Shown here: one piece after another, positions 2,379-6,851 of the stretch | Position numbering within the stretch: the first letter of the stretch is position 1 | How the letters are laid out: each line of letters starts with the position of its first letter | Origin: Erysipelothrix piscisicarius | Lineage (GTDB): Bacteria; Bacillota_I; Bacilli_A; Erysipelotrichales; Erysipelotrichaceae | Reading direction: 5' to 3' | NCBI RefSeq assembly: GCF_003931795.1 | Contig: NZ_CP034234.1 | Coordinates: 1,054,001 to 1,118,000, forward strand | Length of the DNA: 64,000 nt | The notes under the pieces: model-generated | The model's database searches: none | Seen by the model: only the letters and a program-made list of their open reading frames with translations | What the model was told of the DNA's origin: nothing | Made by a program: the position numbers and the translations under genes

Positions 2379-3277
2379 ATGGAATATATTGATAAGAAAT
2401 TACATGATTTATTAAAGATGGCACTTTCACAATCAATTACAGATATCCATTTCGACATTACGGAAATCTTTCAAGTGATTCGCATGAGACGCCATAAAAA
2501 AACGATTAGAGTAATCCATGATCGAGCAAACTCTATGAACACTTAAAATATATATCGCGTTTTGATTTAAGTTTAACAGACATTCCACAAACGGGGACGT
2601 TTAGTATGATTTTTGATCGAAAGTATTATTTTAGATTTGCTGCAATTGAAACGTTTGAAAGAAAAAATGGTGTTGTTCGGATTTTGAATATTGTATTGAT
2701 TCATTCTGCCTACGAATGTATATCGAATAAGCGAATTGTAAAATCACTTTTAAAATCTTTTGAAGTAAACTCCGGTTTAATTCTATTTTCGGGTGTAACC
2801 GGGTCAGGTAAGTCTACAACCATGTTCAATGTTCTTAAGGAAATTACGACAGCATCCATTTACAGTGTTGAGAGTCCAATTGAGCATTTCTATAGCCATA
2901 TTATCCAACTCGAGCCCATTAAATCACGACTTACTCAAGAAGATATTTTGAACCAACTTTTAAGGATGGATGCTGACATCATTGTGTTTGGTGAAATACG
3001 TACACGACAGGATTTAAGTCTATGTATTCGAGCTGTGAATATGGGGCATCGTGTATGTGCTACGATTCATGCGAGAAGTTCTTTTCATACAATCGATCGT
3101 CTCTTTGATCTTGGCGCAACGCGCTATGAAATTGAAACAGGATTAAACGGTATTTTATACCATTATCTGAAAAATACAAAAGGAGGGGCTATTTTTAAAC
3201 ATGAATTTTCAGATAAACTTCAAATTTATGACTACCTTAATCAAACATGTAAAAACGAACCTGTTGTCGATCTCTGA
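2379..3277 (+). CDS. comGA: ComGA, competence pseudopilus assembly ATPase (frameshifted in this sequence)
   Basis: The first 49 codons (2379 on, start MEYIDKKLHDLL) run into a stop at 2544-2546. The rest continues from about 2528 in another frame as KLYEHLKYISRFDLSL and onward to 3277. Adding one A to the AAA run at 2528-2530 joins them into one ORF of about 300 residues. The core has the P-loop GVTGSGKST (near 2794-2820), the Walker B segment IIVFGEIR and a conserved ATIHARS motif, all typical of PilB/GspE secretion ATPases. By family it powers the ComG pseudopilus that draws DNA through the cell wall. It is the first gene of comGA-GG. No clear promoter is visible in the 22 bases between the upstream terminator and the start. 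The break looks like a homopolymer error rather than decay. Confidence 0.85.
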
Positions 3278-4181
3278 AACGGATAAATCAGTTTTAAGGC
3301 TTCTTGTCGTTGGTCTTTCTTTTCAAGAAATTAAATTTTACCTAAACATAAAAGATCAATCTTTCGATGCATACCTTCATCGAATCCTTCCAATCAATCT
3401 CTATGCACTTTATCCTCAAGTATCTGGAATTACACTTCTAAAGTTATACGATGAACTTAAAACACGAAAAGCTTATCGTTTCAAATTATTATGTCAATCG
3501 CTCGGATATTGGATTTTTCTTCACGCAGTCGTTTTATTTATGTTTGTATTTTACCGGAATCTATTGTATCCCGCTGTCGCCAAAGAACTTGAAGTATTTT
3601 CAAATAATCAGATTTATTCAAATGTTTCTCAAATATTGAGTCGAATTCTTTTGTATTTACAAATGTTGTTTCTAATACTCTTTATTTTAGCACTAAGTGT
3701 TTGTAGTCATAAAAAAATACGAATGATGATTGGTGCGGTGATCAATGGAATTTGGAAAGATAATTTGCTTGTTTTGTATCTATCGGAACAATTTTGTTTA
3801 TTCTTCTCGATGATTTATCCTGAAACTAAAACAACACGTTTAACGCTTAAGTGTCTTCGAACTTCACTTTCTAAAACACTATCTGGTTCAATTGCATTTG
3901 AAATTGAACGTCTTTTGGAACAGGGTCAAGACATTTCAGATGCGTTATCACACGCTTCGCTCCATAGTTTAATTAAAAGCAATATGCGTGAGGGATTTCT
4001 ATTTAATAATTTAGAATCGGTTTTCGTCACATGTTTAAATCTTACAGATATTCTTATATTGCACAATCTTACAAAAGTCATTCGAACATATAGGATGTTC
4101 GTCTCGATAAACATAATTATGATTGTGGTTATCTACTATGAACTAGTTATGATTCCACTTAAACTTATGGAGGGATTATGA
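3228..4181 (+). CDS. comGB: ComGB, competence pseudopilus membrane protein
   Basis: Polytopic type II secretion F-domain protein that overlaps the end of comGA by about 50 bases. ATG 3201 is an alternative start and would give a longer overlap. Hydrophobic segments lie near residues 85-105, 145-165 and at the C-terminus (SINIIMIVVIYYELVMI), the usual three-helix pattern. In the family it is the inner-membrane platform on which ComGA assembles ComGC fibres. The assignment rests on topology and position between comGA and comGC, because the primary sequence is weakly conserved. Confidence 0.82.
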   Translation: MTTLIKHVKTNLLSISETDKSVLRLLVVGLSFQEIKFYLNIKDQSFDAYLHRILPINLYALYPQVSGITLLKLYDELKTRKAYRFKLLCQSLGYWIFLHAVVLFMFVFYRNLLYPAVAKELEVFSNNQIYSNVSQILSRILLYLQMLFLILFILALSVCSHKKIRMMIGAVINGIWKDNLLVLYLSEQFCLFFSMIYPETKTTRLTLKCLRTSLSKTLSGSIAFEIERLLEQGQDISDALSHASLHSLIKSNMREGFLFNNLESVFVTCLNLTDILILHNLTKVIRTYRMFVSINIIMIVVIYYELVMIPLKLMEGL

Positions 4182-4465
4182 AGCAAGGATTTACGCTAAT
4201 TGAAATGGTACTTGTGATGACGATTGTCGCAATTATCTTTATGTTGACACTACCAAACATTCAAAAGACGATCACGATGGTAAATCGGAAAGGGTGTGAT
4301 GCTCAGAAGAAAATCGTAGATGCAGCAATTATGCAATATAAAATAAATTATGATGAATTACCAACAACAATAGATCAACTGATTAATGCAGGTTATTTAA
4401 GAGCAAATCAATCTAAATGTTTCAACGGTGAGGGCATCCACATTGAAAATGGTCAAGCTGTATAA
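4178..4465 (+). CDS. comGC: ComGC, major competence pseudopilin
   Basis: This 95-residue protein has a textbook prepilin signal: short leader MKQG, then FTLIEMVLVMTIVAIIF, with cleavage expected between G4 and F5 and methylation of F5. A conserved globular part follows with two cysteines (KGCDAQK and SKCFNG), matching the disulfide seen in Gram-positive ComGC. It starts four bases inside the end of comGB. It would form the main fibre of the transformation pilus after processing by a ComC peptidase, which is not in this window. Confidence 0.95.
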   Translation: MKQGFTLIEMVLVMTIVAIIFMLTLPNIQKTITMVNRKGCDAQKKIVDAAIMQYKINYDELPTTIDQLINAGYLRANQSKCFNGEGIHIENGQAV

Positions 4466-4733
4466 TATACGTTTTAGCCTGTGTGAATTTCTTCTTATGG
4501 TATTTGTTGTGAGTGCATCGATTCCAGTATTTCTTTCGTTTCAAATTGAGATGAAGCACGAACCCAATTTGCTTGAGTATCAATTAAGTGCAATGGAAGA
4601 TCTCGAAGTGGTTCCAATTCATGATAATCATTGGTTTAATGCGAATGGAAACATCAATAAAGGAGGGACAATTCAAATTGACGAGTACCGTTGTGTCATT
4701 CAACTTGGTTTTGGACGGTATCGCTGTGATTAA
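4449..4733 (+). CDS. comGD: ComGD-like minor pseudopilin
   Basis: It overlaps the end of comGC by 17 bases and encodes about 94 residues. The N-terminus carries a degenerate prepilin motif (FSLCEFLLMVFVVSASIPVF) with the conserved Glu at +5, but there is no Gly or Ala just before the cleavage site, so processing is uncertain. The remainder is a small soluble domain with Cys in EYRCVIQ and at the very C-terminus (RYRCD). ComGD is assigned from gene order and the helix. An in-frame ATG at 4428 would add seven residues. Confidence 0.72.
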   Translation: MVKLYNIRFSLCEFLLMVFVVSASIPVFLSFQIEMKHEPNLLEYQLSAMEDLEVVPIHDNHWFNANGNINKGGTIQIDEYRCVIQLGFGRYRCD

Positions 4734-4815
4734 CTGCTTTACTTATATAGAGGTGATGTATTGTTTATTTATTTTAAGTTTGATGACTTATTTATTGTGT
4801 CTGTTTTATGCATAG
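4726..4815 (+). CDS. comGE: ComGE-position mini-pseudopilin, 29 residues
   Basis: Starting at GTG 4726, eight bases inside the comGD stop, and ending eight bases inside comGF, this tiny frame encodes a peptide whose core is CFTYIEVMYCLFILSL. That is a near-perfect type IV pilin signal and helix, with Glu at +5, but no globular domain follows. GAGGTG around 4750 could also drive an internal ATG at 4756. Gene order (GD-?-GF) and the motif argue that this is what remains of, or serves as, ComGE. Nothing downstream in any frame restores a globular domain because comGF coding begins at once. Its expression is not proven. Confidence 0.5.
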   Translation: MINCFTYIEVMYCLFILSLMTYLLCLFYA

Positions 4816-5179
4816 AGCTTATTCGTTAATTGAGTATCTCTTGTGTTTAGCAATTACACCTTTGTTAATGCTTGTTTTAAATCAGACTCTTGAACGGAGT
4901 TACATGCTTTTGGTTGAGGCACCGAGAATTAAACAGAATACTGTTTTTGAACTTCAGCTGCAACAGCTTTTAATTCGGAGTCGACGCGTAAAATGTGAAG
5001 CCAATCGGATATACTTTGAAAGAAACAATTTAGTTAATGAAATCAGTTTTAATGGGAAATATATTATTAAAAAACCAGGTTATGAGATTCTCTTGCATAA
5101 TGTTACAGACTTTTCATGTGGAGGAAGTAGGGTGACTTATACGTTTGAAGCGAAAGAATACGAGTTTTATGGATGGTAA
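4808..5179 (+). CDS. comGF: ComGF-like minor pseudopilin
   Basis: The protein is 123 residues with an N-terminal pilin-like helix (YSLIEYLLCLAITPLLMLVL). A ComGF-family soluble domain follows, with a conserved pattern around NRIYFERNN and a C-terminal beta-rich part. It overlaps the mini comGE by eight bases and comGG by about 11. Minor pseudopilins of this set are needed for transformation in Bacillus and Streptococcus. Confidence 0.82.
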   Translation: MHRAYSLIEYLLCLAITPLLMLVLNQTLERSYMLLVEAPRIKQNTVFELQLQQLLIRSRRVKCEANRIYFERNNLVNEISFNGKYIIKKPGYEILLHNVTDFSCGGSRVTYTFEAKEYEFYGW

Positions 5180-5495
5180 TTTTGTCGGTTGCGCCAATGT
5201 CGTTTTTGTTATTTTATGTTTTTCAATTATTAAAGCATCAACACTCTATGTAAAGCATTATCGAATGAAGCAGACCATTAATAATATACAACAAAGGATC
5301 GAATTGGAACGACTGGTGATTGACCATTTTTGTTTTGAGGATGAGGATTTCATGTACGAAGATGTTAACTTTGAAGTTTTTGCACAAAAAAAAGATCAAA
5401 AAGTTTATGTTTCTATAAATGGTATTAGGTCATATCGGTTTTCTTATGATATAATTGATGATGGAAGTTTTAACTTAACTAAAATGGAGGATTAA
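5169..5495 (+). CDS. comGG: ComGG-like minor pseudopilin
   Basis: About 108 residues, with one hydrophobic N-terminal segment (GCANVVFVILCFSIIKAS) and a short acidic soluble domain. It lies last in the comG series, two bases before efp, which appears to be co-transcribed. The start at 5169 overlaps the comGF stop; ATG 5145 is possible. It lacks the usual F1/E5 pilin motif, as ComGG often does. The call is by position and shape. Confidence 0.65.
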   Translation: MDGNFVGCANVVFVILCFSIIKASTLYVKHYRMKQTINNIQQRIELERLVIDHFCFEDEDFMYEDVNFEVFAQKKDQKVYVSINGIRSYRFSYDIIDDGSFNLTKMED

Positions 5496-6158: not shown

Positions 6159-6164
6159 AAACGT

Positions 6165-6285
6165 GTATACTTCAGGGCAGGGTGAAATTCCCGATCGGCG
6201 GTAAACCCCGCGAACCAATTGGTTGAACTTGTGAAATTCAAGTGGCGACAGTTAAAGTCTGGATGGAAGAAGTTTTTTTCATGTT
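6165..6285 (+). promoter_or_regulatory. FMN riboswitch (RFN element)
   Basis: It contains the hallmark blocks of the RFN aptamer in order: CTTCAGGGCAGGGTGAAATT, then CCCGATCGGCGGTAAACCCC, a variable arm, GTGGCGACAGTTAAAGTC, and closing GGATGGAAGAAG. It directly precedes ribU. FMN binding should reduce expression of the transporter. The aptamer ends only 39 bases before the ribU ATG and I see no strong separate terminator, so control may be at ribosome access. Confidence 0.95.
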
Positions 6286-6323: not shown

Positions 6324-6851
6324 ATGAAAAAATATAATACTCGCACAATGGTTAGTATAGCAATGCTGACAACAGTATCCGTGATTCTCTACATGTTTGA
6401 ATTTTATGTACTTCCGGGATCACCGTTACAAGCAGATTTAAGTGATTTACCGGTTATTATCGGTGGTTACCTTCTCGGCACAGGTCCAGGACTTATGATT
6501 GCTTTTTTAAAGAATATATTGCATATGTTCTTTTTATCAAAAAATGCAGGACCGGTTGGAGAGATTGCGAATTTTAGTTATGCAGTCTTAATCATGTTAC
6601 CCATTGCATGCTATAAACCTACTACAAAAACCAAACGTAGTGGATTATATGTTTTTACAGTATGTGCGAGTGCACTTTTAATGAATCTTATTAATTATTT
6701 TATAACATTCCCATTATATGGAATGAGCCAAGAAGGCGCGTGGAACTTGCTCTTTGCGGTGTTTTTACCATTTAATTTAGCAAAAGGGACGCTCTTAATC
6801 GTTTTCTTTAGCGTTTTACGTCCCCATTTACATAGAATCACAGGACATTAA
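6324..6851 (+). CDS. ribU: Riboflavin transporter, ECF S-component RibU
   Basis: A 175-residue membrane protein with about six helices. It carries the RibU signature region LQADLSDLPVIIGGYLLG and the GPGLMIAFLKN segment that lines the substrate pocket. It works with the shared ECF energy module (EcfA1, EcfA2, EcfT), encoded elsewhere, to import riboflavin. Placement under an FMN riboswitch supports the substrate. AAGGAGG lies 6 bases before the ATG. Confidence 0.95.
   Translation: MKKYNTRTMVSIAMLTTVSVILYMFEFYVLPGSPLQADLSDLPVIIGGYLLGTGPGLMIAFLKNILHMFFLSKNAGPVGEIANFSYAVLIMLPIACYKPTTKTKRSGLYVFTVCASALLMNLINYFITFPLYGMSQEGAWNLLFAVFLPFNLAKGTLLIVFFSVLRPHLHRITGH

Follow-up and report, generated by a model that had tools for sequence, protein, structure and literature searches.

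A helix-only frame in the comGE slot of Erysipelothrix competence operons

Does the short reading frame between comGD and comGF in a comG operon of Erysipelothrix piscisicarius encode a minor pilin, or only what is left of one? The window analyzed here, a stretch of 64,000 nucleotides, carries in this place a frame which the original prediction described as a ComGE reduced to its pilin signal helix. Such a protein was expected to be either an unusual minor subunit or a relic. We examined the frame in the genus and in the order, and weighed the reading as a ComGE without a head against its alternatives.

Results

The comG operon of the window

The genes of the operon occur in the order comGA (broken), comGB, comGC, comGD, short comGE, comGF, comGG and efp (Table 1). 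The 123-residue product of the gene that follows the short frame is similar to ComGF, and the short frame therefore occupies the comGE slot. This product matches NCBIfam NF041002 with E 1.7e-7 over profile positions 2-114 and Pfam PF15980 with E 0.0024, both under the curated cut-off; a comparison with solved structures gave no sequence match. The coordinates bear out the prediction of a 29-residue frame in the comGE slot with an 8-base overlap with both neighbours. The prediction that no globular domain is encoded downstream also holds; comGF starts inside the frame, so that no space is left for such a domain.

Table 1. Features of the comG operon in the window. A slash marks the cleavage site in pilin signals.
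Feature	Position	Strand	Remarks
comGA	2379..3277	+	frame change near 2520-2530; residues 1-48 in one frame, 51-304 in another
comGB	3201..4181	+	NF041012, E 2.8e-7
comGC, major pilin	4178..4465	+	signal G/FTLIE; NF040999, 77.5 bits (cut-off 75)
comGD, short form	4449..4733	+	~86 mature residues; NF040982, E 4.2e-5, C-terminal half; Arg at -1 of the pilin signal
Shine-Dalgarno-like GGACGG for comGE	4713..4718	+	within comGD; anti-Shine-Dalgarno duplex ends 5 nt upstream of the GTG
comGE, short	4726..4815	+	GTG start, 29 codons, TAG at 4813-4815; product MINCFTYIEVMYCLFILSLMTYLLCLFYA
comGE/comGD overlap, 8 bases	4726..4733	+	comGE start over comGD stop (4733), GTGATTAA
comGF/comGE overlap, 8 bases	4808..4815	+	comGF ATG (4808) over comGE stop, ATGCATAG
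comGF, 123 aa	4808..5179	+	signal A/YSLIE
comGG	5169..5495	+	assigned by position before efp; signal G/CANVV without Glu5; start uncertain (ORF list: TTG at 5145)

The expected cleavage of the short ComGE falls between Cys4 and Phe5 and would leave a mature part of 25 residues, all of it hydrophobic helix, with Glu at +5 (FTYIE). The signal had been predicted to be near-ideal. Glu is indeed found at +5, but the description is overstated, because the residue at -1 is Cys and not Gly, and because the leader of four residues contains neither Lys nor Arg; furthermore, Gly-1 is missing in all four genomes of the window's clade (see below). The anti-Shine-Dalgarno duplex of the window comGE amounts to -6.8 kcal/mol, while about 7% of random 18-mers from the loci reach -6.

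Outside the operon, the window contains an FMN riboswitch (RF00050, 106.6 bits) at 6164-6278, ahead of a gene at 6324-6851 which we take to be riboflavin-transporter-like.

Conservation in Erysipelothrix

A ComGF search of 60 relatives resulted in matches in 40. Thirteen Erysipelothrix genomes were examined, including those of E. anatis (G004), E. tonsillarum (G005), E. urinaevulpis (G006) and the window's own genome (G000); the comGE slot is visible in 12 of them, and in G001 the contig ends inside comGF. Each of the 12 visible slots contains a pilin-like frame of 29-38 codons between comGD and comGF. This frame is open in 12/12 genomes, the two other forward frames in 0/12, and the reverse frames across comGE in 0, 5 and 1. 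A short ORF with a strict pilin signal (Gly, Ala, Cys or Ser at -1 and Glu at +5) is present in 9 of the 12 real regions; in dinucleotide shuffles (1000 per region) such an ORF occurs with a mean of 0.36%.

Glu5 is conserved in 10/12 genomes, with Thr in its place in E. tonsillarum and Gly in E. urinaevulpis. Gly-1 is conserved in 8/12, that is in all eight genomes outside the window's clade and in none of the four inside; Glu5 is found in seven of the same eight outside species. The original prediction had named conservation in other Erysipelothrix genomes as a check, and loss of the frame or a longer comGE as grounds against it. At the species level motif and frame recur, with the short frame in all 12 visible slots; no relative among these 12 has lost the frame, and a longer comGE occurs in none of them. 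A helix-only pilin in the ComGE slot is hence real and common to the visible members of the genus, but without the near-ideal signal ascribed to it.

Selection on the comGE peptide

Substitutions were analyzed in the 24 comGE codons that do not overlap the neighbours, with an expectation obtained from random placement of the differences. G000 and G002 differ in 16 bases, which change 5 residues versus 10.6 expected (P 0.00025 with kappa 2, 0.0015 with kappa 4). Between G000 and G009 there are 5 residue changes versus 10.0 expected (P 0.00075-0.005), and between G000 and G005 12 versus 16.6 (P 0.006-0.02). The two closest pairs show no amino acid constraint, with 4 base differences that change 3 residues in G002-G009 and 9 that change 7 in G004-G007. 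Pairwise omega, which for comGE rests on just 13-21 synonymous sites, is 0.09 for G000-G002, 0.11 for G000-G009, 0.20 for G000-G005, 1.67 for G002-G009 and 1.19 for G004-G007; the pairs share branches and hence are not independent. Second codon positions received 10 of 50 changes, which is below one third (P 0.03); the enrichment of third positions (21/50) is not significant (P 0.13). Equal rates of synonymous and non-synonymous change had been named as a refutation of the prediction. The comparisons of G000 with G002, G009 and G005 speak for constraint on the peptide, but in the two closest pairs there is none.

The clade of the window's genome

The window's clade comprises G000, G002, G009 and G005, in which the residue at -1 of comGE is Cys, Phe, Cys and His, respectively. 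ComGD has lost Gly-1 in the same genomes (Arg, Asn, Asn and Ala in the same order), and ComGF in three of the four; ComGC has kept it. Some competence genes are also broken in this clade. The comGA gene, which is split in the window, is in one frame and of full length in 10 of the 11 other Erysipelothrix genomes, and comEA of the window's genome is split between two frames (L138, G000 1484500-1490000). In G009, comGF lies in two frames and comGA is without its first 12 residues. The homology of this comGA (L113) to that of G002 stops beside a gene for a 672-residue protein, which was named large-serine-recombinase-like by eye; a mobile element seems to have inserted at comGA. G002 and G005 have comGA, comGC, comGD, comGF and comEA each in one frame. 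The omega of ComGC between clade members is 0.015-0.02 where computable, which argues that the pilus has been under strong selection in this clade and was needed until recently. Either competence was lost more than once in the window's clade, or some of the breaks are sequencing errors.

In all four genomes of the clade there is an 8-base overlap between the comGF ATG and the comGE stop. No Shine-Dalgarno sequence precedes comGF there (0.9 kcal/mol), whereas comGE is provided with one (-6.8 to -11.5 kcal/mol). Since comGF is without a Shine-Dalgarno sequence, comGE may persist here partly because its translation drives that of comGF.

Length of ComGE across the order

The length of ComGE was scored automatically at 147 loci, with some genomes in more than one set, and 127 mature lengths were obtained. 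The loci missed were 0/12 in the genus, 5/36 in the rest of its family (f1), 3/24 in the named Erysipelotrichales, 0/12 in a second family (f2), 7/10 in other members of the class and 5/53 in Bacillales. The median mature length is 102 residues in Bacillales (range 47-111; 48/53 loci scored), 63.5 in f2 (51-67; 12/12), 53 in the rest of f1 (29-80; 31/36) and 64 in the named Erysipelotrichales (25-80). Within the order but outside Erysipelothrix, the mature protein has mostly about 40-80 residues, while in Erysipelothrix it has 25-34 (12/12 scored); at L001 and L002 the cleavage site was set by eye, giving 25 mature residues where the script gives 31. A few loci outside Erysipelothrix are equally short (L013, L015, L040, L046 and L050, 25-30 residues). 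ComGD shortens too, from a median of 139 in Bacillales to 126 in f2, 102 in f1 and 86-91 in Erysipelothrix.

AlphaFold2 models a ComGE from Bacillales (Mesobacillus, L055) as a helix (6-61) plus four strands (mean pLDDT 82.8), and the 75-residue ComGE of Anaerorhabdus furcosa as one helix (5-67) without any strand (mean pLDDT 81.2). Erysipelothrix ComGE retains only the first half, the membrane half, of the helix seen in these longer relatives. On a ComGC tree, which was built on few columns and has many weak forks, the short ComGE (<=34 residues, 17/73 rows) needs 2 changes versus 15.7 in shuffles.

Orthology

The window comGE scores 12.5 bits against the ComGE model NF041013, whose cut-off is 49. 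The model is over cut-off in 0/23 genomes searched; of 14 control genomes, just 2 reach it. We also considered, and rejected, a ComGE head encoded by a gene of its own: in the 23 genomes the better matches to NF041013 are N-terminal stretches that resemble pilin helices, none over the cut-off, and no head-only gene was noticed among the matches, although this is a weak test with a short model and partly inspected matches.

In a profile comparison with Bacillales, the Erysipelothrix ComGE set gave 94% for ComGC, 93% for ComGF, 89% for ComGD and 81% for ComGE. The helix profile does not single out ComGE, and orthology therefore rests on position; by sequence alone the Erysipelothrix ComGE helix cannot be told from other Com pilin helices. 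With the ComGE of Bacillus and Streptococcus (NF041013) the window peptide shares the slot, a pilin-type N-terminal helix, Glu5 and the overlap with comGD. In contrast to them it lacks a globular domain, keeps just one half of the helix, and has 25 mature residues where they have about 100; at -1 it carries Cys and not Gly. If the window peptide works, it works like ComGE; by head, by Gly-1 and by profile membership it does not qualify as one.

Other competence genes and unusual starts

A prepilin peptidase domain and DprA are present in 13/13 Erysipelothrix genomes, and a ComEA-type domain is over the cut-off in 12/13, the exception being G001, in which a long frame gives a weaker match. PF03772 and TIGR00360 were over cut-off in 0/13 genomes, which hinted at a loss of ComEC and a pilus without a DNA channel. 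This idea was rejected. A gene of 575-605 aa lies between comEA and holA in 8/8 Erysipelothrix genomes fetched (L138-L145), at the position of ComEC in the f2 control G037; in the three of these eight that were scanned, a metallo-beta-lactamase domain was the sole domain found. This ComEC-like gene has diverged too far to be recognized by PF03772 and TIGR00360. ComEC has also been reported in the core genome of E. rhusiopathiae (PMC4906694). A weak ComEC match in G000 was discarded as a permease-like protein by its sequence and an ABC-type neighbour.

Some pilin genes start in an unusual manner. In 12 of the 24 loci from the genus and f2, the stretch of comGF from the preceding in-frame stop to the pilin signal contains neither ATG nor GTG nor TTG (L006, L008, L009, L011 and L012 in the genus; L018, L019, L021, L023, L024, L027 and L028 in f2). 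At 11 of these 12 loci AUU, AUA or AUC occurs instead, mostly after a Shine-Dalgarno sequence (-4.4 to -11.0 kcal/mol). In S. aureus, AUU and AUA starts with an extended Shine-Dalgarno sequence give about 10% output, in an account whose available part does not mention comG (PMC13009471); a low dose of ComGF could be an effect of the non-canonical start. Furthermore, comGD of Rossellomorea (L086, L087, L097) has no canonical start, with ATT after a strong Shine-Dalgarno sequence in L087 (-12.5 kcal/mol) and L097 (-12.0 kcal/mol), and comGC of E. urinaevulpis (L007/L032) has none within <=25 codons ahead of the pilin motif A/FTMMEM.

Discussion

We consider it somewhat probable that Erysipelothrix has a lineage-wide headless ComGE, which acts via its helix in the pilus tip and which is probably losing this function in the lineage of the window. 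ComGE would have been cut down in this genus to the first half of its pilin helix, which spans the membrane, and the reduction would have passed through a stick-only form that is still present in the rest of the order. We infer that the short ComGE still enters the membrane, that the prepilin peptidase cleaves it wherever Gly-1 has been kept, and that it sits between ComGF and ComGG in a four-pilin tip. There its helix, together with Glu5, would contribute to the initiation of the filament. DNA would be held by ComGD and ComGF, so that the head of ComGE would not be needed. In the window's clade, which has lost the glycine at the cleavage site and in which two of four genomes carry broken competence genes, the frame is probably losing its role as a pilin; it may be held there partly since its translation would be needed to start comGF.

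A ComGE that consists of nothing but helix would fit the literature on the E5A mutant and on the tip model. In S. pneumoniae the E5A mutation in ComGE nearly abolished pili, and the authors concluded that ComGE depends heavily on its N-terminal helix (PMC8727766). The modelled order of the tip is GD-GF-GE-GG, and every com gene was required for pili (PMC10790768); DNA binding has been located at the ComGD-ComGF interface (PMC12153270). However, the soluble domain of S. pneumoniae ComGE binds partners in pull-downs (PMC8727766). The head is therefore not idle in that species, and this counts against the helix-only reading.

Only tentatively do we propose the stronger claim that a half helix of 25-34 residues functions as a minor pilin, which would make it the smallest known type IV pilin, and that a Com pilus can be started with no more of ComGE than the membrane half with Glu5. 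Minor pilins of the GspI and PilV type have a head, and Geobacter PilA and the Tad pilins are about 50-60 residues long. In the model of the tip complex, ComGE fills the place that corresponds to GspI and PilV (PMC10790768). Major pilins that are very short and have no head are already known (PMC7212644), and those of Geobacter (PilA) and of Tad systems are likewise nearly all helix (PMC7212644; PMC12786226). These are major subunits with a whole helix, whereas the Erysipelothrix ComGE would be a minor subunit with half of one. Com systems have been counted in 6/14 Erysipelotrichia (PMC7212644), and the available part of a paper on Bulleidia deals with the comG locus of a relative and says nothing on the size of comGE (PMC12786226). 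We found no account of a short or headless ComGE in Erysipelotrichales in the open-licence literature searched, a scope outside which most subscription papers lie.

The short frame could also serve as a translational coupler, i.e. its peptide would have no job of its own, and ribosomes that end on comGE would restart at the overlapping comGF ATG. In the window's clade this is a serious rival. There the overlapping comGF is without a Shine-Dalgarno sequence in 4/4 genomes and comGE has one, and the peptide has lost Gly-1 in 4/4 and Glu5 in 1/4. A coupler, however, requires no Gly-1, no Glu5 and no hydrophobic run, and elsewhere in the genus Gly-1 is kept in 8/8 and Glu5 in 7/8 genomes. Amino acid changes below neutral in 3 of 5 pairs tested and a strong Shine-Dalgarno sequence ahead of comGF in several other species also argue against it, and we regard coupling as a fairly unlikely explanation of the frame. 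It is distinctly unlikely that the frame is a comGE remnant which is decaying as its lineage loses competence. The frame-broken comGA and comEA of the window's genome, the frame-broken comGF of G009 with its startless comGA beside the large-serine-recombinase-like gene, the loss of Gly-1 in the clade and the closest pairs without constraint are all consistent with decay. But the same short form occurs in eight Erysipelothrix species outside the clade with comGA in one frame, the frame is open in 12/12, and a ComGC omega of ~0.02 between clade members indicates that the pilus was needed until recently.

It is very improbable that an unrelated small membrane peptide has moved into the slot. Although the profile comparison cannot separate the helix from other pilin helices, intermediate lengths with the same pilin signal occupy the same slot across the order. 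A sequencing error that masks a longer comGE, which the two other frame-broken com genes of the window's genome might have suggested, is refuted by the relatives and retains hardly any probability: the same length class is found in 12/12 genomes, and the frame already contains the start of comGF.

Genes so short and so closely overlapping are easily missed in annotations. What each of the four minor pilins contributes to the start of a type IV filament is hidden, because the deletion of any one of them stops the pilus. The headless ComGE of Erysipelothrix belongs to a natural series, in which the head and then half of the stick were lost with the operon in place, and this series predicts which part of ComGE would have the starting role.
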